Assembly: GCA_014381035.1 (NCBI GenBank)
Contig: JACMIS010000916.1
Span: 1-32,435, forward strand
Direction: 5' to 3'
Origin: Armatimonadota bacterium
GTDB taxonomy: Bacteria; Armatimonadota; Armatimonadia; Armatimonadales; Armatimonadaceae
Length of the DNA: 32,435 nucleotides
A program made the translations under genes and the position numbers. The notes beneath the pieces are model-generated. The model made no database searches. It saw only the letters and a program-made list of their open reading frames with translations, and was not told the DNA's origin. This document shows positions 6,938 through 26,162 of the stretch, piece by piece; within the stretch, counting starts at the first letter, position 1, and the number at the start of each line of letters is the position of its first letter.

Positions 6938-8140
6938 CTACGACGCCATACGCAGTTTAACGGCTTGTGCCTCGAACTTTGGCTTGTACATCGGGCACTT
7001 GTACGATTTAGAAAAGTCTTTCGGGTTTTCGGCTTCGGCGATAAAAACTTTGGTACCGGTGATGCCGCACTTTTCATACGCACGGTCATAGTTTCCGCAG
7101 TCGTAGCAACGGCGAAGAATCGTCCAGCAAACCGAGCAGCGGAGCGACCCGATCAGTTCGACGCGACCACACAACGGGCAGTGGATATACACTTCGCGGA
7201 ACCCGAAGTCCTTATTCGCGAGCGACTCGCGCAGTTTCATATTGAAGTTTTCGAGTTCGCGGGACAGTTCCGCTGTGGTGGCGAGCAACTGGTTCATCTG
7301 CTCGGCGGTCAAAAACTCGCCGATACGGTCGTCCAGCATTTCACCGAATCCGACCGCGCTTTTTTCCAGTGTTTTGAGGTGCGATTCCGCGGTTACGGCT
7401 TTATAGGGGCGTTTTCGCTCCTCGCGTGCCCCGAGTGAGCGTAGAATCTGCTCCGTCACCGAAACCGGAACGCGCAGGAAGGCTTCTTTGCGTTGCGGAA
7501 ACTGCCGGATCGCGCCGACGATCTTATCCAGGTCCGAAACGTTCAGTTTCTCCTGCTTCACCTTTTGCGCGAGCCGCAGTTGCGCCTGTGCGTCGTCGTT
7601 CATCGCCAGCAGGACGCGGGCGTGCCCTTCGGCGAACGCTCCCTCCCCGGCACCGGGACGTGCAATCAACTCTTGCTGGATGGCGAGAGGCAACTCGAGC
7701 AGTTCGAGGCTACGCCGTATCGTGGTTTCCGAAAGACCGAGCGTTTTTGCCACGCGGTCGTAACTCATGAATTGCAACAACGCTTGCATCGCACGCGCCC
7801 GTTCCACCGGGTTCATGTCTTCGCGTTGCAGGTTTTCCAGAAGCGAGTCGGCGGCGGCTTCTTCATCGGAAAGGTTCTTGATCAGGACCGGGATCGTCGT
7901 CAGTCCCGCCATTTTCGAGGCGCGGAAACGACGCTCGCCCATCACGATTTCGTACAGCCCGTCATTGCGTCCCCCCATCGGCCGGACGACAATCGGTTGC
8001 AGAACGCCACGTTCCTTGATAGACGTGGCTAACTCTTCCAATGATTCCTGAAAAAAACTGCGGCGTGGTTGGGATTCATTGGTGCGAATCTTATCGAGCG
8101 GCAGGCTCTGTGCATTAGTATTTTGCGCCGTGGTTGCCAT
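6938..8140 (-). CDS. ParB/Spo0J-like protein with C-terminal eight-cysteine (zinc-ribbon-like) module
   Basis: 400 residues. The N-terminal half is a ParB CTPase/clamp domain: LPLDKIRTNESQPR, the CTP-binding GERRFRAS (68-75) and ENLQRED (102-108), then a helix-turn-helix (about 128-148, VAKTLGLSETTIRRSLELL). Known ParB proteins load on parS, slide as CTP clamps and work with a ParA ATPase. Here the usual C-terminal dimerisation region is replaced by a helical stretch (about 240-310) and a module with Cys at 321, 324, 335, 338, 345, 348, 358 and 382, arranged as three CxxC pairs plus two single Cys, consistent with two metal sites. No parA lies next to it, so it may be a Noc/nucleoid-occlusion-type or regulatory ParB homologue rather than the chromosomal partition protein. 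An AAAGGA lies directly before the ATG, and an AAAAGGG is 10 nt upstream. Confidence 0.88.
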   Translation of the reverse strand: MATTAQNTNAQSLPLDKIRTNESQPRRSFFQESLEELATSIKERGVLQPIVVRPMGGRNDGLYEIVMGERRFRASKMAGLTTIPVLIKNLSDEEAAADSLLENLQREDMNPVERARAMQALLQFMSYDRVAKTLGLSETTIRRSLELLELPLAIQQELIARPGAGEGAFAEGHARVLLAMNDDAQAQLRLAQKVKQEKLNVSDLDKIVGAIRQFPQRKEAFLRVPVSVTEQILRSLGAREERKRPYKAVTAESHLKTLEKSAVGFGEMLDDRIGEFLTAEQMNQLLATTAELSRELENFNMKLRESLANKDFGFREVYIHCPLCGRVELIGSLRCSVCWTILRRCYDCGNYDRAYEKCGITGTKVFIAEAENPKDFSKSYKCPMYKPKFEAQAVKLRMAS

Positions 8141-8188
8141 AATCCTTTAACCCTTTTGCCGCGTGATTTCCTCAAACGCGGAGATGCC

Positions 8189-8194
8189 ATTATA
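8189..8194 (-). promoter_or_regulatory. Probable -10 box of the parB-like gene
   Basis: On the minus strand the 95-nt gap upstream of the ParB-like gene contains a perfect TATAAT (plus-strand ATTATA, 8189-8194). The region where a -35 should lie (around 8212-8217) is AT-rich without a good TTGACA. The leader would be about 40 nt. This suggests the gene is transcribed independently of the metallopeptidase gene upstream. Confidence 0.45.
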
Positions 8195-8235
8195 CATTGT
8201 GGCTTTTTGTCGAAAATTTTTAAGGTTCGGAATCC

Positions 8236-10539
8236 TCATGGATGGGAATAACTATTCTTAGCCACGCCGTCGGTGATTTCGAGCGGCGTCCATTCCGGCA
8301 AAGCAGAAACCGACTGACGCGCCGATTCGGTCGTCGGGATGCCCCAGAGCGCAAAAAACGGTCCGAGGTTTTTGCCCACCGCCCGCGAGAATCGCATCAG
8401 AAACTGGTCGTGCTTTTCGGTGTCGGTGCGAGGATGCTCGCGGACAGGAAGTTGTTCGTACTCTCGAAAAACGGTCTGAAATGGTTTCCAGCCGAATTCC
8501 TGGCGAAGTTGTATAAAGAATGTAAGTGCCGTAAACGGGTCGCTTTTCCATTTTTCGTAGGGTGCCCCTGCCGCGAAGTAAGCCGTGAGGAGCTTTTTGC
8601 GGGCGTCCGGCGCGATAGCCGGATGGGAGTTGACGTAGTCCGATTTCACGCCATTGAATAGTTCGTCGCCGTAGAGCGCGAAAAAGTTGTTAGTGACTTC
8701 GCCGCATCCGTCCCACGACCAGGCAGGCTTTTGATGATTGTGCCCGAGTTCATGGTAGAAGCCCCACGTTTTGATACCGCTGCTGCCGCGCAAAATCCGG
8801 AGATCCACGAACGTTTTCGCCACGTCGTCCCCGGTCATGATCGGATAGCCGGAGTGCATGTAGCCCGCGCTAATCTGCCGGTCCACACAGTACCGCTCCT
8901 GCCGTCGCCGCTCCCGGGGGATCGCATATAGGTCGGCGGCGGCGTCCATCACCGCGTCCCAATAGGACATCAGCGCGTCCGGGTCATCCAGATCGCGTAC
9001 CACCGACGACGGGACCGTCAGTACACACCGGTCGCCCTGCAATTCCGCCCACGGCCCCGGCGCATGGCGGGTCGTTCGACGCCACGCGTCCAGATCGGTT
9101 TTGCCGCGCACGAAATACGGGGCGGCGACCGCCCCCTTCACGGTGACCGTGACAGTTGCGGGGGGGCAACCGTCGGGAACATCGATCAGGATCGCGCCGC
9201 CGAATGCGTTCGCGATGCGTGTCACCGGCGCGGTGATCGAAAAACTGCGCGTCACTTCGGGAGATCGCTTCCACGTCGGCAGGTGCCAGAGCGTATCCGT
9301 GTGCGTACCGATACGAACCCGTAACCCGAGTTTCGCCCCGATTGCCGAAACGGTCACGGTGAGGGCTTCTCCCGGAGCGGCGTACAGTCCCGTGCTGTGC
9401 CATTCGGGTATCGTGGTGTCTACAGGGAGTGCTCGCGTCACGCGGGGTGCATCGGCGGGGATGGCACCGGGAAACGACGAGGCGGAAGGATGGGCGACCA
9501 ACGACTCCGGCGGAGCAGTCATCGCGGCGCGAATATCCTCCGTCAGGAAGAGGCGGTGCAGGGGCTTTTCCATCGTGACGGGGTTCACATGAAGATCGGC
9601 GAAATTCGGTGTATCCGACTTGCGCAACCGGGCGAGACGGGCGCGGAACGATCTTTCGCCCGGCGGCAGTGCCTGGAGTGCCTGCCCGACCGTCCAAACC
9701 GACTGTGCGTTTTCTGTGGGAGTACCGGTCCCCGCGATGAGAGCATCTAGTGCGTTTGAGGCGTTGATTCCATCCGGCAGTGGTTCGGTGGTCGTGAAAC
9801 CGCGTTTCGTCGTGCGCTCCAGCATCCCGCCCGTCCACAGCAATCCCATCCCGGCGAAGATGTGGTTGCCCCCGTTTTCCGACAGGGTTTTGCCAGGATG
9901 TAGACTCAGCCAGCCCCACCCTGTTTCGGCACCGACCAGCCCCCCTCCCGCCTTCGCAAAAGCCGTATACGCCGCGTGTTCCGCTTCCGGCACGTCAGAG
10001 AAAGTGCCGACGATCACATCGAACTCCTTGAGTCGCTTGGCACTTCCCTTCTCCGGGAGCACTGCCACCAGGACGCCTCCTCGTGCCTTGAGAAGTGCGA
10101 CCACGCCCCCTTGCCGCTTCGCCAGCACGCCGACACGCGGATACATTCGCCCGCCCGCCGCCCAGCGGATGGAGTTGAAGAGCAATTTACCGGTGTCCCC
10201 GGTCCCCAGCGCGTCCGCCGCGAAGTAGCCATCGTGCCCGAACGCGACGCCCCGTCCCTTGCCATACATCGCAGCCGCGACCACCGCCTCGCGGTACTCG
10301 CCGGAGCTAGCTACCACGACGGGAAACGCACTCTTGCTATAAACGCAGACCGAACCCGGCACGCCAGGTGCCGCCACTTCGCGCACGCCATCGAGCATCC
10401 AGGTCGGGGCGTCCATTACAGAAGGTCGGACATGCGCCGCAGGGGAATACGTCTCAGGGGGTACAGCACCGAAGGCAACCCTGACAATCGGCGCAGTGAC
10501 CCATAAGAGCAACAAATAAAGTGCGACAGTCTTGGACAT
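8236..10539 (-). CDS. Secreted M60-type (enhancin/SslE-like) zinc metallopeptidase
   Basis: 767 residues. The N-terminus (1-24) is a signal peptide with an SKTVALYLLLLWV core. Residues about 50-330 resemble the N-terminal region of TCAF/M60-like proteins, with a glutamine-amidotransferase-like fold (VIVGTFSDV, GGGLVGAETGWGW). Residues about 370-480 form a beta-rich domain, and the C-terminal third is the peptidase. The zinc site is HELGH (596-600) with a downstream Glu (Glu614 in GCGEVTNNFF), which fits the M60 pattern HExxH-x(8-24)-E. Known M60 enzymes cut mucins and other O-glycosylated proteins. The natural target in an environmental bacterium is unknown. The gene is divergent from the MFS gene, with a 167-nt gap that contains a GAGCGA/TCGCTC hairpin at 10549-10564. 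Confidence 0.85.
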   Translation of the reverse strand: MSKTVALYLLLLWVTAPIVRVAFGAVPPETYSPAAHVRPSVMDAPTWMLDGVREVAAPGVPGSVCVYSKSAFPVVVASSGEYREAVVAAAMYGKGRGVAFGHDGYFAADALGTGDTGKLLFNSIRWAAGGRMYPRVGVLAKRQGGVVALLKARGGVLVAVLPEKGSAKRLKEFDVIVGTFSDVPEAEHAAYTAFAKAGGGLVGAETGWGWLSLHPGKTLSENGGNHIFAGMGLLWTGGMLERTTKRGFTTTEPLPDGINASNALDALIAGTGTPTENAQSVWTVGQALQALPPGERSFRARLARLRKSDTPNFADLHVNPVTMEKPLHRLFLTEDIRAAMTAPPESLVAHPSASSFPGAIPADAPRVTRALPVDTTIPEWHSTGLYAAPGEALTVTVSAIGAKLGLRVRIGTHTDTLWHLPTWKRSPEVTRSFSITAPVTRIANAFGGAILIDVPDGCPPATVTVTVKGAVAAPYFVRGKTDLDAWRRTTRHAPGPWAELQGDRCVLTVPSSVVRDLDDPDALMSYWDAVMDAAADLYAIPRERRRQERYCVDRQISAGYMHSGYPIMTGDDVAKTFVDLRILRGSSGIKTWGFYHELGHNHQKPAWSWDGCGEVTNNFFALYGDELFNGVKSDYVNSHPAIAPDARKKLLTAYFAAGAPYEKWKSDPFTALTFFIQLRQEFGWKPFQTVFREYEQLPVREHPRTDTEKHDQFLMRFSRAVGKNLGPFFALWGIPTTESARQSVSALPEWTPLEITDGVAKNSYSHP

Positions 10540-14618: not shown

Positions 14619-15560
14619 ATGACTCGAACAACTTTTTCGCGCCGCACCGCATTTCTCGCTGCCGCCGTGCTCGCAATGCCACTTCTCGCCGGTTGTCCCA
14701 CCGCGAACACGGATACCCGCTCCACAACAACCGGGGGCACTGCCACCGGCGGGACTCCCGAGAATAAAGGTGACGACACTACCGGCGGTTCGCTGACGAT
14801 CTCGGGGTCCGACACGATTCGCCCCTTGTCCGAGCGATGGGTCGAGGAGTTCAACAAACAGTCTCCTGCCAGTATCAGTGTCAAGGGCGGTGGCTCCGGG
14901 CAGGGCATCAGTGCCCTGATCAATAAAAGCGTCGACATCGCCAACTCGTCCCGAAAGATGAAGGACGAGGAGATGAAAACAGCCGAAGGGAAGGGATTGA
15001 AGGTTACGGAGATCGCGGTGGCGATGGACGGTATCACGATCATTGTCAATCCGAAGAACCCGATCAAATCGCTCACGATCCAGCAACTTGCCGATATTTA
15101 CACGGGCAAGGTGAAAGATTGGAAAGAGATCGGCGGCACACCGGGCAAGATTGTTGCCATCGGGCGGGATTCTTCCTCCGGAACCTATGAATTCTTCAAG
15201 GAAGACGTCCTGAAGAAGGCGGATTACCGCTCTGACATGGTGCAAAGCAAAGCCAATCCGGCAATCGGTACCAGTGTCGGACAGAACGCCGGTGCCATCG
15301 GCTATATCGGCGTCGCCTTCGCCTCGGAATACGTGAAAGCCGGGAAAGTCAAGGAAATGCCCGTCGCGTTCAAAGACGGGGATGAGCCGATCCTTCCCAC
15401 GGTGGAGAATGTTCACAGCGGCAAGTACCCGATCTCACGGTCGCTCTACAACTACGTCGCCGGGGAACCGGAAGGTCTGACGAAAGCGTACCTCGATTTT
15501 GTCCGGAGCGAAGAGGGTCAGAAAATCGTCGCGGACGAAGGCTATATTACTTTGAAGTAG
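14619..15560 (+). CDS. pstS: Phosphate ABC transporter substrate-binding lipoprotein PstS
   Basis: 313 residues, ATG at 14619 with an AAGGA 13 nt upstream. The N-terminus has SRRTAF, a hydrophobic core and the lipobox LAGC (Cys26), followed by a Thr/Gly linker, so the protein is a membrane-tethered binding protein. The mature part carries the PstS phosphate-binding pattern: SGSDTIRPL (about 63-71), GGGSGQGISALI, IANSSRKM, and GRDSSSGTYEFF around residue 185. It captures orthophosphate for the PstCAB channel. It is first in the operon behind a Pho-box-like array. The 87-nt gap to pstC holds an inverted-repeat element that could lower downstream expression relative to pstS. Confidence 0.96.
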   Translation: MTRTTFSRRTAFLAAAVLAMPLLAGCPTANTDTRSTTTGGTATGGTPENKGDDTTGGSLTISGSDTIRPLSERWVEEFNKQSPASISVKGGGSGQGISALINKSVDIANSSRKMKDEEMKTAEGKGLKVTEIAVAMDGITIIVNPKNPIKSLTIQQLADIYTGKVKDWKEIGGTPGKIVAIGRDSSSGTYEFFKEDVLKKADYRSDMVQSKANPAIGTSVGQNAGAIGYIGVAFASEYVKAGKVKEMPVAFKDGDEPILPTVENVHSGKYPISRSLYNYVAGEPEGLTKAYLDFVRSEEGQKIVADEGYITLK

Positions 15561-15562
15561 GC

Positions 15563-15640
15563 TGTTTGGTGTTAGGTCCAGAGCGTCTGCCGAACCGTTA
15601 CCGGTGCTGAGACGACACCGAACACCAAATACCAAATACT
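15563..15640. repeat. Inverted-repeat element between pstS and pstC
   Basis: The left arm TGTTTGGTGTTAGGT (15563-15577) and right arm ACCGAACACCAAATA (15617-15631) pair at 13 of 15 positions. An inner CGTCT/AGACG pair lies at 15584-15588 and 15610-15614. The right arm continues as a 7-nt tandem repeat (ACCAAAT twice, 15624-15637). It begins 2 nt after the pstS stop and ends 7 nt before the pstC ATG, leaving pstC without a visible ribosome-binding site. It belongs with the elements at 18474 and 29452 by architecture. Confidence 0.6.
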
Positions 15641-15647
15641 TAACTCA

Positions 15648-16643
15648 ATGGCAGTAACCACCGTGAACTCTCATAACGGCACGCCGACCGGCGCGAACAA
15701 TCTTGCTTCGCGCCGGTCGCCGCTTGCCGCCTTCGCGGAGAAGATGATCACCGGTTGGATCTACCTTTGCGGCGGCTTGTCCATTGTGTTCGTGGTAATG
15801 ATCTTCCTGTTTGTTTTCAAGGAAGCGTTCCCGCTTCTGCGCGAGTATTCTATCAGCGCGTTTCTGACCGGGACACTCTGGGCACCGACTGAGCAGCCGG
15901 AAAAGTTCGGTCTGGTCCCGCTTTTGCTATCGTCCGTGATGGTGACGCTCGGCGCGGTGGTGATTGCGATCCCCCTCGGCTTGATGACCGCGATCTACCT
16001 GGCGGAGATCGCCCCTGCACGCATCCGCGATATTTTGAAGCCCGCCGTGGAACTGTTGGCGGCAATCCCTTCCGTGGTACTCGGCTTTTTCGGCGTAACG
16101 GTCCTCGCACCATTTCTGGCGCAGACGCTTAAATTAGACATCGGGCTATCAATGCTCGCCGGGTCGATAACGCTGGCTTTTATGGCGGTCCCAACCATCG
16201 CGACCATCAGCGAGGACGCCTTGTCGTCAGTCGGTAAAGATTTGAAGCAGGGCAGTCTCGCGCTCGGCGCGACGCGCTGGGAGACAATCCGCCGCGTCGG
16301 GGTCCCGGCGGCGTTCTCCGGGATCATGGCGAGCATCATGCTTGGAATCGGTCGCGCCATCGGGGAAACGATGGTGGTGCTGATGGTAACCGGATCCGGG
16401 GTCGGCGACTCCCTCAAAGGCATCATGACGGAACCATTGCAAGCCTTCCGCTGGGTATTTTCCGCGTATGGCGAGATCTGCAACACGATCACCGCGACCA
16501 TCGCATCCGATATGGGTGAGGCGGTCGTCGGCTCTGCGCACTACCACGCGCTGTTTCTGCTGGGCGTGGTCCTTTTCGTAATCACCTTCATCATCAACCT
16601 CGTCGCCGATGCCGCACTACGAAAGGGGCACCTCCAACAATGA
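15648..16643 (+). CDS. pstC: Phosphate ABC transporter permease PstC
   Basis: 331 residues, inner-membrane permease with about six helices (the first around residues 36-62, the last around 300-322). The binding-protein-dependent transport domain carries the EAA loop that contacts PstB (ALGATRWETIRRVGVPAA, about 205-222), followed by GIGRAIGETMVVLMV, typical of PstC. It pairs with PstA to form the phosphate channel. It overlaps pstA by 4 nt (ATGA), so the two are translationally coupled. No Shine-Dalgarno is visible before its ATG; the region directly upstream is the end of an inverted-repeat element. Confidence 0.95.
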   Translation: MAVTTVNSHNGTPTGANNLASRRSPLAAFAEKMITGWIYLCGGLSIVFVVMIFLFVFKEAFPLLREYSISAFLTGTLWAPTEQPEKFGLVPLLLSSVMVTLGAVVIAIPLGLMTAIYLAEIAPARIRDILKPAVELLAAIPSVVLGFFGVTVLAPFLAQTLKLDIGLSMLAGSITLAFMAVPTIATISEDALSSVGKDLKQGSLALGATRWETIRRVGVPAAFSGIMASIMLGIGRAIGETMVVLMVTGSGVGDSLKGIMTEPLQAFRWVFSAYGEICNTITATIASDMGEAVVGSAHYHALFLLGVVLFVITFIINLVADAALRKGHLQQ

Positions 16644-17593
16644 GCACCCCGGCAACTACACTGTTACGCTCCGCGAACACCACGTCGCGGCAGAACTACG
16701 AAAAACTGATGTTCGGCGTGATGGGATTGGGCGCAGTCTGCGTCGTGATCCCGATGGTGTACATCTTCGTTACGCTGTTCATCGGCGGGATCGGCAAAGT
16801 GCTGACGCCCGGATTCCTGACCGAAATTCCGAGCCGGGGTAGCACGCAAGGCGGTATCGGTCCGCAAATCGGCGGCACCATCGCTTTGATGATCGGCACT
16901 ATCGTGCTCGCGCTCCCGCTGGGTATCTCGGCGGCGATCTACCTGACGGAGTATGCGGGTAAGAACGCGCTCACCCGTGCGATCCGGATGGCGATCGTGA
17001 ATCTTGCCGGGGTGCCCTCCATCGTGCATGGGCTGTTCGGTCTGGGATTATTCGTGTACCTGCTCGGCGCGTGGATGGACAAAATCAGCGGCTTTTCGAG
17101 TCTCGACCCGCCGCAGAATTTTTGGGGACGCCCGACATTGTTGTGGGGCGCGGCAACCCTGGCGATTCTGGTTTTGCCGATTGTGATTACCGCGACCGAA
17201 GAATCCTTGAAAACGGTGCCGCGCTCTTTTCGCGAAGGGTCTATCGGGTTAGGCGCGACGAAATGGCAGACGATCTGGAAGGTGGTGTTACCTGCCGCAC
17301 TTCCAGGAATTTTGACCGGTACGATTCTGGCAATCGGGCGGGCGGCGGGTGAAACAGCACCAATTATTCTCGTCGCGGCGGTGGGATACAAGACGAATTT
17401 CGCGCCGATCCCCCCGTTGTATGAGCCTGTTGTTGCTCTGCCCTACCACCTGTTCTACGTGGTAACCGAAGTCGCTCGTGCGACTCCCGCACTCCAGTAC
17501 GGCACGGCACTAACCTTGCTATTGATTGTATTCGGGATGAACCTGGTGGCGATTATTTTGCGGACGCGGCTTCGGAACGCACGGAGATGGTAA
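16640..17593 (+). CDS. pstA: Phosphate ABC transporter permease PstA
   Basis: 317 residues, about six membrane helices. Diagnostic segments are GIGPQIGGTIALM, LPLGISAAIYLTEYAG, the NLAGVPSIVHGLFGLGLF helix typical of PstA, and the EAA loop ALGATKWQTIW-like block (GLGATKWQTIWKVVLPAALP, about 205-224), then AIGRAAGETAPI. It forms the heterodimeric phosphate channel with PstC. It starts 4 nt inside pstC. Its stop is 10 nt before the pstB ATG, and GGAGATGG near its end (17582-17589) may serve as the pstB ribosome site. Confidence 0.95.
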   Translation: MSTPATTLLRSANTTSRQNYEKLMFGVMGLGAVCVVIPMVYIFVTLFIGGIGKVLTPGFLTEIPSRGSTQGGIGPQIGGTIALMIGTIVLALPLGISAAIYLTEYAGKNALTRAIRMAIVNLAGVPSIVHGLFGLGLFVYLLGAWMDKISGFSSLDPPQNFWGRPTLLWGAATLAILVLPIVITATEESLKTVPRSFREGSIGLGATKWQTIWKVVLPAALPGILTGTILAIGRAAGETAPIILVAAVGYKTNFAPIPPLYEPVVALPYHLFYVVTEVARATPALQYGTALTLLLIVFGMNLVAIILRTRLRNARRW

Positions 17594-17603
17594 CGAAACG
17601 ATT

Positions 17604-18473
17604 ATGATTAGCGACGAAAAAATCAGCGCACAGGCGGTCGGCACGTCGCGCAACGGTGTCGGAACGGTATCCCCGGGCAAAGGACGCGGCGCAACGGACC
17701 CGCAACGGGATTTGAAGATTCGTATTCAGGCGAGTGAGGTCGATTTCCATTACGGAGACGGCTTTCACGCGCTGAAAAATATCAACATGCCGCTTTACGA
17801 CCGGCGCATCACCGCGCTGATCGGACCGTCGGGTTGCGGCAAGTCGACATTCCTGCGGTGCCTGAACCGTATGAACGAGGAGATTGACTCCGAATCCCGT
17901 GTCGACGGCAATATCTCGCTCGACGGCATTGATATTTATGGCGCGGACGTGGACAAGCCGGAGTTGCGCAAACGGATCGGGATGATCTTTCAGGCACCGA
18001 ATCCGTTCGGGATGAGCATCTATGACAACGTGGCGTATGGACCGCGCTTACACGGCAAGCAGACGAAAGACGAACTGGATGCACTGGTCAAGAAGTGTTT
18101 AGAGCAAGCCGCGCTTTGGGACGAAGTCAAAGACAAACTGAAAGCCTCGGCGTTCTCGTTGTCGGGCGGTCAGAAGCAGCGGCTGTGTATTGCCCGCACT
18201 CTCGCGACGGAACCGGAAGTCATTCTGATGGACGAACCGACATCCGCACTGGATCCAGCGTCCACCGCAAAAATCGAAGAGATGATGGAGTCGCTAGGAC
18301 GTGAGTACACCATCGTGATCGTGACGCATAACATGGGACAGGCGACACGCATCAGCGACTATACCGGTTTCTTTTATAAAGGCGACCTGATCGAGTTCGG
18401 TGAGTCGGTCGATCTGTTCAATAAGCCATCGCACAAACAAACGGAAGATTACATACGAGGAAAGTTCGGTTAG
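17604..18473 (+). CDS. pstB: Phosphate ABC transporter ATP-binding protein PstB
   Basis: 289 residues, about 35-40 longer at the N-terminus than many PstB proteins because of a Gly/Thr-rich lead before the ATPase domain. Walker A GPSGCGKS (74-81), PstB-specific FLRCLNRMNE, Q-loop FQAPNPFGMSIYDNV (129-143), signature LSGGQ (186-190), Walker B VILMDEP (206-212), and H-loop VTHNMGQATR. It hydrolyses ATP to drive phosphate import. The TNPFPM-like region (PNPFGMSIYDNVAYGPRLHG) is characteristic of the family. The stop codon is immediately followed by a long inverted-repeat element. Confidence 0.97.
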   Translation: MISDEKISAQAVGTSRNGVGTVSPGKGRGATDPQRDLKIRIQASEVDFHYGDGFHALKNINMPLYDRRITALIGPSGCGKSTFLRCLNRMNEEIDSESRVDGNISLDGIDIYGADVDKPELRKRIGMIFQAPNPFGMSIYDNVAYGPRLHGKQTKDELDALVKKCLEQAALWDEVKDKLKASAFSLSGGQKQRLCIARTLATEPEVILMDEPTSALDPASTAKIEEMMESLGREYTIVIVTHNMGQATRISDYTGFFYKGDLIEFGESVDLFNKPSHKQTEDYIRGKFG

Positions 18474-18584
18474 GTGGTCGGGTGGTAGGGTAGTTAGGTT
18501 GCTGGGATCAATTTACCGGGGTCGGATACCGCCCCAGAATTCCCTTCGACACCTGACTGCCGAACCACCCGACCACCCGACCAC
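18474..18584. repeat. Long inverted-repeat element between pstB and phoU
   Basis: It starts at the base after the pstB stop. The left arm GTGGTCGGGTGGT (18474-18486) has two overlapping perfect complements, ACCACCCGACCAC at 18564-18576 and 18572-18584, because the right arm is an 8-nt tandem repeat (ACCACCCG). Inner pairs are AGTTAGGT with ACCTGACT, and a strong core hairpin GGGG-T-CGG-ATA-CCG-CCCC (18518-18535). The whole 111 nt can fold into one imperfect hairpin in the operon mRNA. No Shine-Dalgarno separates it from the phoU ATG. Confidence 0.7.
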
Positions 18585-18594
18585 ACACACAACA

Positions 18595-19401
18595 ATGTCG
18601 CTTACAGTAAACAGTTACAAAAACGGAAACGGATTGCACGAGGATACTTTCATACCGGAGTTCTCGCTTTCCGTGGGTGACAGTGAGAACCTTTCCTCGC
18701 CTGTAGATACGCTGACCGAACTGCGCCGCCGCATTTTAGAAATGGGCGCGGCGACGGAGGAGTTGGTGCGCGACGCCTTGCGGGCATTGACCGAGCAGGA
18801 CAGCTCGCTCGCGGCAACGATTATGCCACGCGACGATGTCGTGGACCGCATGGACATCGAGATCGAAGCCATGTGTCTGCGTCTGCTTGCCGTCCCAAAC
18901 CCCAAGCCGGAAGAGTTGCGCTTGATCAGTGCCGCGCTGAAGGTGATTACCGACATCGAGCGTATCGGCGATCATGCGGTAGACATCGCGAAGATCAGCC
19001 AGCGTATGGGTCGCGAGATGTTCTACAAGCCGCTGGTGGATATTCCGCGACTCGGAGAAATGACGCGCCAGATGCTCCACGACGCTCTGGAAGCGTTCGT
19101 GCATCGCGACCTGGATCGTGTCGAACGCGTGATCGCGGGCGACGACAACGTGGACGCGCTGTACGCACGGATGCGCAAAGAGTTGCAGTTTATTATGCAG
19201 GAGGACCCTTCCTCGGTGCTTCAAGCCTCGTACCTGCTGTTCGTGGCGCACTATCTGGAGCGCATCTGTGACCACTGCACGAATATCGCGGAACGGGTCG
19301 CGTTTATGGAGACCGGTGAGGTCAAACACTCTTCGCCGAAAAAAGCCTCCAAAGACCTGCCTCCGCTCCCCCCGGTGCGCGTCTCCACGAACAACAAGTA
19401 G
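18595..19401 (+). CDS. phoU: Phosphate transport/signalling regulator PhoU
   Basis: 268 residues from the ATG at 18595. An in-frame upstream extension would run through the inverted-repeat element and into pstB, so it is rejected. The protein has two PhoU repeats of three helices. Each carries the metal-binding signature, first as ERIGDHAVDIAK (about residues 121-132) and then as ERICDHCTNIAERV (about 221-234). About 35 residues of N-terminal lead and a basic C-terminal tail (SSPKKASK) lie outside the repeats. PhoU links the Pst transporter to the PhoR kinase and represses the Pho response when phosphate is plentiful; it also limits uptake. Its position at the operon end is standard. Confidence 0.95.
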   Translation: MSLTVNSYKNGNGLHEDTFIPEFSLSVGDSENLSSPVDTLTELRRRILEMGAATEELVRDALRALTEQDSSLAATIMPRDDVVDRMDIEIEAMCLRLLAVPNPKPEELRLISAALKVITDIERIGDHAVDIAKISQRMGREMFYKPLVDIPRLGEMTRQMLHDALEAFVHRDLDRVERVIAGDDNVDALYARMRKELQFIMQEDPSSVLQASYLLFVAHYLERICDHCTNIAERVAFMETGEVKHSSPKKASKDLPPLPPVRVSTNNK

Positions 19402-24994: not shown

Positions 24995-25028
24995 GGGCAT
25001 CTTTTCCCGAATACAGGGGTAGATGCCC
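24995..25028 (+). promoter_or_regulatory. Hairpin enclosing the start codon of the McsB-like gene
   Basis: A perfect 8-nt inverted repeat, GGGCATCT (24995-25002) and AGATGCCC (25021-25028), has the ATG (25023-25025) inside its right arm. An inner CCC (25006-25008) can pair with GGG of the purine-rich AGGGG just before the start. In mRNA this would hide both the ribosome site and the start codon. There is no T-run after it, so it is not a terminator for the upstream gene. Confidence 0.5.
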
Positions 25029-26162
25029 GAACCCTACGCCGCGCCGCGACCGCTTCCCGAATCGTTGAAAACCCCTGCCTGGGCGGGCGTCGCGACTGCA
25101 ACCGAGGGTGGACCGGACACCGATGTCATTGTTTCTACCCGCGCCCGCCTCGCCCGCAATCTGGAGGGCTACCCTTTTCCAGGGAGAGCCAGTGAAACAG
25201 AACTACGACGCGTCGCGCAATCCGTCCGTCAAGCCGCGCATGCCGATACCGGTCGGCTTTTCGACCTGATCCCGGTCGAGATCGGGTCACTCCCGCCGCG
25301 AGACCGGGCGGACCTCGTGGACGCCCGGCGTATTTCCCCCGACCTTGCGAATGGCGGGACCGAGCGGTACGCACTGCTGGATACGACGGGGCGGATCAGT
25401 ATTTTCGTCAACGAGGAAGACCATGTGCGACTGCAAGCACTCGAACCGGGGAACGCCCCGCAGGTCGCACTGCGCGATGTACAGGACGTGGAATCGCGTC
25501 TCGCTTGCCGTGTGCAGTGGGCACAGGACACGGAAAAGTGGGGATATTTGACCGCCTCGATGAGCAACACGGGCACCGGTCTGCGTCTTTCCGTTCTCGC
25601 ACATTTACCGGCTCTCGTCTTTCTCAACCGGTTGGATCGGGTCTTCGACGCCGCGAGGCAGTTGGGGGTTTCGGTCCGCGGGGCACACGGCGAACATTCC
25701 GTCGCTGCGGGCGATCTGTTTCAGGTCAGCAACGAGCAGACACTCGGGATTTCGGTGGAGAACACGGCGGGGCGGGTCCGCTCGTTCGCGGATATTCTGG
25801 TGCGTGACGAACGAACCGCCCGCCGGGAGGTTGCCGGGGACCGTACCCGGCGCGACCGCGCCATGAGCGCGGCGCGGTTCGCCTGGGAGCGCACCAAAAC
25901 CTCGGACCGGCTTTCCGCCCGCGATTCCCTCGAAATCTTATCGTCGCTACGACTTTGCGCCGTTTGTGGTCTCCTGCCCTGGCGGTACGATTATCAGATC
26001 ACCGCCGCGCCGGACGACCGACTGTTCGCCTATTTGCTCGCCGAGCTACGCACCGGAGGCGGCTTGACGGGAGCCGAAGGAACAGCGGCACTGCGCGACG
26101 CCATCGGACGCCCCGCGCTGCTTCGCTCCGCGCTCGCCCCGATCTATATCGGCTCGGTTTGA
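25023..26162 (+). CDS. mcsB: McsB-like protein arginine kinase (guanido kinase fold)
   Basis: 379 residues, with the phosphagen/protein-arginine kinase catalytic domain across most of the length: STRARLARNL (38-47), the NEEDH loop (130-134), GYLT followed by NTGTGLR (174-188), and RGAHGEHS...QVSNEQTLG (219-242) with catalytic Glu224. Known: McsB phosphorylates arginine residues on proteins, marks them for ClpCP and inactivates the heat-shock repressor CtsR. Oddities: the active-site Cys of TSCPTN in McsB is replaced by Ser179 (TASMSN), and the C-terminal RDxxRA allosteric motif appears altered (RDAIGRPA, about 358-365). The usual partners ctsR, mcsA and clpC are absent. The start codon lies in a predicted hairpin. 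It overlaps the convergent thrB by 19 nt. Confidence 0.88.
   Translation: MPEPYAAPRPLPESLKTPAWAGVATATEGGPDTDVIVSTRARLARNLEGYPFPGRASETELRRVAQSVRQAAHADTGRLFDLIPVEIGSLPPRDRADLVDARRISPDLANGGTERYALLDTTGRISIFVNEEDHVRLQALEPGNAPQVALRDVQDVESRLACRVQWAQDTEKWGYLTASMSNTGTGLRLSVLAHLPALVFLNRLDRVFDAARQLGVSVRGAHGEHSVAAGDLFQVSNEQTLGISVENTAGRVRSFADILVRDERTARREVAGDRTRRDRAMSAARFAWERTKTSDRLSARDSLEILSSLRLCAVCGLLPWRYDYQITAAPDDRLFAYLLAELRTGGGLTGAEGTAALRDAIGRPALLRSALAPIYIGSV

Follow-up and report, generated by a model that had tools for sequence, protein, structure and literature searches.

An orphan ParB with an eight-cysteine C-terminal module

We analyzed a 32,435-nt stretch of contig JACMIS010000916.1 from an Armatimonadota bacterium (assembly GCA_014381035.1), which as a whole is referred to here as the window, and focused on an orphan parB gene whose product ends in a module of eight cysteines. 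The gene has exact coordinates 6938..8140 and lies on the minus strand, which the initial annotation does not give (the features within the gene listed below are on this strand too); it starts with ATG and encodes 400 amino acids; its closest relative, 96% identical, is found in the Armatimonadota metagenome-assembled genome ES-bin-63. Two domains account for the first half of the protein: the ParB_N domain, which binds cytidine triphosphate (CTP) and carries the GERRFRA and ENLQRED motifs, at residues 10–105 (7826..8113; E 4.6e-34), and the DNA-binding HTH_ParB domain at residues 107–211 (7508..7822; E 1.4e-16). The scores for ParB_N (116.8 bits, cut-off 26.3), HTH_ParB (60.9, cut-off 22.6) and TIGR00180 (172.5, cut-off 58.45) are all above the curated cut-offs, by which the protein is a member of the ParB/Spo0J superfamily. 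GERRxRA and ENxQR motifs are present in all 231 relatives of 370 amino acids or more.

The remainder of the protein departs from this family. A helical region at residues 215–310 (7211..7498), seen in the secondary structure of the predicted model, stands in place of the linker and the dimerization domain ParB_C, and is followed by the eight-cysteine module at residues 318–388 (6977..7189). ParB_C (PF23552) was not found in the window protein at E ≤ 1, nor in two other eight-cysteine proteins at E ≤ 0.01; it was found in one ordinary ParB of a relative, at E 8e-11. The initial annotation had described intact CTP-binding motifs and helix-turn-helix, a C-terminal dimerization domain replaced by a helix and a module, and three CxxC pairs accompanied by Cys358 and Cys382; each of these descriptions is borne out, the last one to the residue.

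Indeed, the window protein has no cysteines besides 321, 324, 335, 338, 345, 348, 358 and 382, and the pattern they form is invariant. All eight positions are Cys in each of 241 aligned rows, and 241/241 rows as well as 31/31 genome loci have exactly the spacing C-x2-C-x10-C-x2-C-x6-C-x2-C-x9-C-x23-C. The rows comprise 120 listed of 361 matches at E ≤ 1e-3, 120 listed of 231 matches at E ≤ 0.1, and the second query, a 50%-identical member from locus L043; both searches used the C-terminal half of their query. By reading, both ParB domains are present in 118 of the 120 listed matches of the first search, the other two being short proteins with the helix-turn-helix only (P0105) or with neither domain (P0088). 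A search with the module alone returned ten short fragments, which were excluded from the 241 rows. Seven of these keep the exact spacing; P0129 and P0131 start within the module, and P0130, apparently out of frame after C358, is without the last cysteine. We considered whether such fragments might be stand-alone copies of the module and rejected the idea: all ten are collinear with residues 250–400 and were taken as probable gene fragments.

Putative metal sites of the module

Compared with Pfam and NCBIfam, the module matched no family above its cut-off. Its weak Pfam matches are led by zinc ribbons, DZR (E 0.064, 13.9 of 27.3 bits) and DZR_2 (E 0.11), both below cut-off. The first four cysteines (site 1: C321, C324, C335 and C338 in CPLCG...RCSVC; 7127..7180) have the spacing of CPxCG-x(n)-CxxC zinc-ribbon knuckles, and in this respect site 1 is zinc-ribbon-like. 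The other four (site 2: C345, C348, C358 and C382 in RCYDCxNY...C...KCPxYKPKF; 6995..7108) could make up either a zinc site or a [4Fe-4S] site like that of a high-potential iron-sulfur protein (HiPIP). The invariant cysteine spacing makes the two metal sites suggested initially a good inference: the module would probably bind metal at two centres, possibly as an iron-sulfur cluster in one of them.

What these centres might contain is best considered site by site. That both hold structural zinc, the module being a rigid dimerization or docking unit that senses nothing, has in our estimate somewhat less than an even chance. The spacing of CPLCG and CSVC, the zinc ribbons at the head of the weak Pfam matches and the zinc-finger structures that appear among the module's weak structural neighbours speak for it, the last from a list in which the absence of other folds excludes nothing. 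Against it, every match to a zinc family is below cut-off, and for site 2 taken alone the best zinc family, zf-ChsH2 (E 0.047), came up in 1 of 22 members. Foldseek found no match at E ≤ 0.001 when the module model was compared with solved structures and with viral structures.

A different assignment would make the protein a redox-responsive clamp, with zinc in site 1 and a HiPIP-like [4Fe-4S] cluster in site 2 whose oxidation or loss would alter dimerization and hence the loading or release of the clamp. Site 2 weakly resembles HpdC, the [4Fe-4S]-bearing small subunit of 4-hydroxyphenylacetate decarboxylase (2y8n_B), in the order and the surroundings of its four ligands. However, controls of this resemblance disagree, one of them going against it; HpdC is an accessory subunit of an enzyme, and its sequence similarity to site 2 is not significant by HMMER. 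We regard this assignment as rather unlikely, and metal- or redox-responsiveness as such is hypothetical.

Altered DNA-contact residues

According to PMC7383237, Arg173 and Gly201 are the specificity residues of ParB and Gln173, Lys179, Lys184 and Arg201 those of Noc; the contacts that the two proteins share include Lys171 and Asn178. We mapped this Caulobacter numbering by counting from the conserved Gly170, so that residue 138 of the window protein corresponds to position 173 and residue 172 to position 201. The recognition-helix region (residues 133–152; 7685..7744) then has E138 at the position of ParB Arg173 and R143 at that of Asn178 of ParB and Noc. These changes are shared by the family: position 173 is Glu or Asp in 237/241 eight-cysteine proteins and Arg in 13/15 ordinary ParBs, and position 178 is Arg in 239/241 of the former and Asn in all 15 of the latter. 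Position 184 is acidic in 239/241, and position 201 is Gly or Ala in 238/241 (Gly alone in 188/241, the window protein included). As the DNA-contact residues have changed, we infer that the eight-cysteine protein reads a site other than parS or the Noc-binding site (NBS). One-mismatch palindromes upstream of the gene were scattered across the 28 upstream regions searched, for which starts were set by hand and are approximate (4 of the 31 loci were excluded).

Seven carrier genomes also encode a third type of orphan ParB (L079–L085, about 2 kb each), without CxxC pairs and without the ParA motif, and with a recognition helix of its own. Like most eight-cysteine proteins, these ParBs are acidic at mapped positions 138, 146 and 149 (7/7), but they have Gly-Tyr where the eight-cysteine proteins have Arg-Arg at 142–143, and CxxC is absent. 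In a 46-row tree, built from 24 of the 241 eight-cysteine proteins, 15 ordinary and 7 third-type ParBs, each type forms one side of a branch, with support of 100/100 for the ordinary, 100/99 for the third and 90/96 for the eight-cysteine type. Midpoint rooting served the drawing only, and the program cautioned about long branches; the tree therefore allows no sister pair to be read among the three types. At the level of a guess, an orphan without the cysteines may later have gained the module.

The neighbourhood of the gene is variable. With simple longest-ORF (open reading frame) calling, no neighbour cluster besides the gene itself occurs in more than 6 of 34 loci (2 of 36 were without the focal ORF). 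A DUF4446 gene adjoins the eight-cysteine parB in five loci (L018, L019, L020, L021 and L069); in L018, the one locus for which this was checked with Pfam, it lies at 9187-10053, divergent from parB. No open-access paper was found with the terms 'DUF4446' and 'ParB' together.

These data bear on the idea of a nucleoid occlusion factor that, like Noc, would keep the division ring off the chromosome. Like Noc, the window protein is an orphan ParB paralogue; it is without the N-terminal ParA motif, Noc is its nearest solved fold, and its lowest NCBIfam E-value is that to nucleoid_noc (TIGR04285; 3.9e-52). However, this match reaches 177.1 of the required 315 bits and is below the cut-off, as it likewise is for one ordinary and one third-type ParB. 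Furthermore, none of the NBS-specificity residues is kept: at positions 173, 179, 184 and 201 the window protein has E, S, E and G, and the residues common in the family (mostly E/D, S/Y/H, E/D and G/A) differ from those of Noc at all four. The cysteine module is a further difference, and the gene has no family-wide neighbour, with no search aimed at division genes. Noc binds the membrane through an N-terminal amphipathic helix; about nine residues precede ParB_N in the window protein. Altogether we consider a Noc-like function quite improbable.

Distribution and relation to ordinary parABS

When one genome per species was scanned with two peptide patterns, an approach that would miss variants without those peptides, 48 stretches matched, 31 of which encode a relative; all 31 bear Armatimonadota-group names or belong to unnamed bacteria. 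Among 291 Armatimonadota genomes, 47 have a match at E ≤ 1e-70, and six of the 47 contain two or three copies. A single protein among those listed bears the name Candidatus Coatesbacteria and may come from a mis-binned contig. The phylum distribution of this fusion thus looks nearly confined to Armatimonadota. Viral relatives were considered as well and rejected: 15 loci match within residues 1–200 only, which is ordinary ParB homology.

Most carriers have a second, conventional system. In 14 of 16 carrier genomes of a first set a different ParB follows within ~0.4 kb after a ParA; of the two exceptions, G009 gave no second ParB and G016 has a ParB without an adjacent ParA match. Adjacent parA-parB pairs were also found in 6 of 7 carriers of a further set (G230 is without ParA), which brings the total to 20/23, with parS beside 16 of the 20. 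In the first set the parS sequence TGTTNCACGTGNAACA is matched within ~1.1 kb of the ordinary ParB in 11/14 genomes, and also beside the ParB of G016 (0/16 for a control with the pattern backwards). In the further set parS is present, and exact, at 5 of the 6 pairs; the search there allowed one mismatch, and at this setting the backwards control gave 1, 2 and 2 matches in three genomes. Where both are on the same contig, the eight-cysteine gene is 0.1 to 3.0 Mb from parAB in contig coordinates.

The ParA-binding motif, defined as (L/F/I)G(K/R)G(L/F/I) in PMC12704722, is N-terminal in 14/15 ordinary ParBs of the first set and in 0/231 eight-cysteine proteins; two of the 231 hold the string elsewhere, at residues 298 and 314. 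Because most carriers have a separate ordinary parAB, the eight-cysteine protein is an extra paralogue besides the partition ParB and probably has a role other than standard partition, as the initial annotation had supposed. Its statement that no ParA is present stands for the window, where a tblastn search using seven ParA ORFs, taken from the loci of relatives, found none (best E 0.21), but does not extend to the whole family: in L022 and L023 a ParA-like gene (AAA_31, E 5.0e-48 and 7.7e-49) is divergent to a second eight-cysteine copy. Those two loci would suit a second partition system, in which the protein and a ParA encoded elsewhere segregate another region or replicon, but with the N-terminal ParA-binding motif missing in all 231 proteins and a ParA match at E ≤ 1e-15 in only 2/31 loci (many on short contigs) this is very improbable.

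The exact parS in L022 adjoins the ordinary parAB. Two further arrangements were noted. On one contig (L072, 3047-8966), a stretch of ~6 kb brings together parS, an ordinary parA-parB, an eight-cysteine copy and a further ParA-like ATPase that is divergent. A genome with three eight-cysteine copies (G024) has a further pair of ParA-like and ParB_N genes on contig C13, at 37863-39033.

A proposed role and its relation to known systems

We think it probable that the eight-cysteine protein is an orphan, lineage-specific ParB paralogue, a CTP clamp with a metal-held module, that organizes or regulates the chromosome apart from ParA-driven segregation. As in ParB and Noc, the intact N-terminal pocket would let two subunits bind CTP, and by the same analogy they would load at a specific DNA site and then close as a clamp; the altered recognition helix would make this loading site neither parS nor that of Noc. 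The helical segment and the eight-cysteine module, in place of ParB_C, would hold the dimer together and offer a surface for binding a partner or DNA. The two metal centres of the module would most likely be a structural zinc ribbon at C321/324/335/338 and a Cys4 centre at C345/348/358/382 that holds zinc or, alternatively, a HiPIP-like [4Fe-4S] cluster. Chromosomal regions would then be organized or regulated by this protein, with ParA-driven segregation left to the ordinary parABS of most carriers.

Several observations weigh against this proposal. No perfect palindrome of 12–16 bases is common to more than 3 of 32 stretches (the 31 loci and the window). The model of the C-terminal part is modest, with a mean predicted local distance difference test score (pLDDT) of 78.4 at best and 57.6–63.4 in the other four models. 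The divergent ParA-like genes in L022 and L023, together with the position of the second copy in L022, 1.5 kb from the ordinary parAB, indicate that independence from ParA is not universal. No adjacent parA-parB was found in 3 of the 23 carriers. These three carriers, and a tree from which no sister pair of ParB types can be read, lower our confidence slightly.

A bolder version of the orphan-clamp proposal, which we hold to be unlikely, is a CTP-switched clamp gated by an iron-sulfur cluster, that is, a phylum-specific ParB with a zinc ribbon and a HiPIP-like [4Fe-4S] cluster at its dimerization end. If true, the time for which the clamp remains shut at its own sites on the chromosome would depend on redox state or iron supply. 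ParB-type CTP clamps are known beyond segregation, and few of the signals they read are known. If metal-bound, a conserved module at the end that usually joins the dimer would link a sliding DNA clamp directly to metal or redox chemistry, and a little-studied phylum would gain a distinct chromosome-binding factor.

The protein resembles canonical ParB/Spo0J in ParB_N with its CTP motifs and in HTH_ParB, and differs in lacking the N-terminal ParA motif and ParB_C, in its altered DNA contacts and in the added module; unlike the ParB of a canonical ParABS system, it is encoded in the window without an adjoining parA. ParBs without ParA and with lineage-specific extra domains are an established class, as PMC12704722 describes, and the eight-cysteine protein is like these orphan or fused ParB-CTPase-fold proteins in having the ParB fold outside parAB along with a lineage-specific added domain. 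The survey in that paper counted fusions by Pfam-A domains, and since it lists them in this way, a module without a Pfam entry could hardly have been named there. In its main text 'Armatimon', 'metal' and 'ribbon' are absent, and 'zinc' occurs in one reference only. A cysteine-rich or metal-binding ParB tail was not found in the open-access literature searched by titles and abstract openings.

Flanking genes

A gap of 95 bases (8141..8235, minus strand) separates the start of parB from the end of an M60 (enhancin-like) peptidase gene upstream (8236-10539, minus strand). In an alignment with the two closest relatives, L016 and L017, a TATAAT and a short stretch within this gap are conserved, perhaps as a promoter of parB's own. 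Elsewhere in the window, the genes at 14619-19401, in the order PstS, PstC, PstA, PstB, PhoU, appear to form a cluster for phosphate uptake, and 25023-26162 looks like a McsB-type guanido phosphotransferase, both named by reading.
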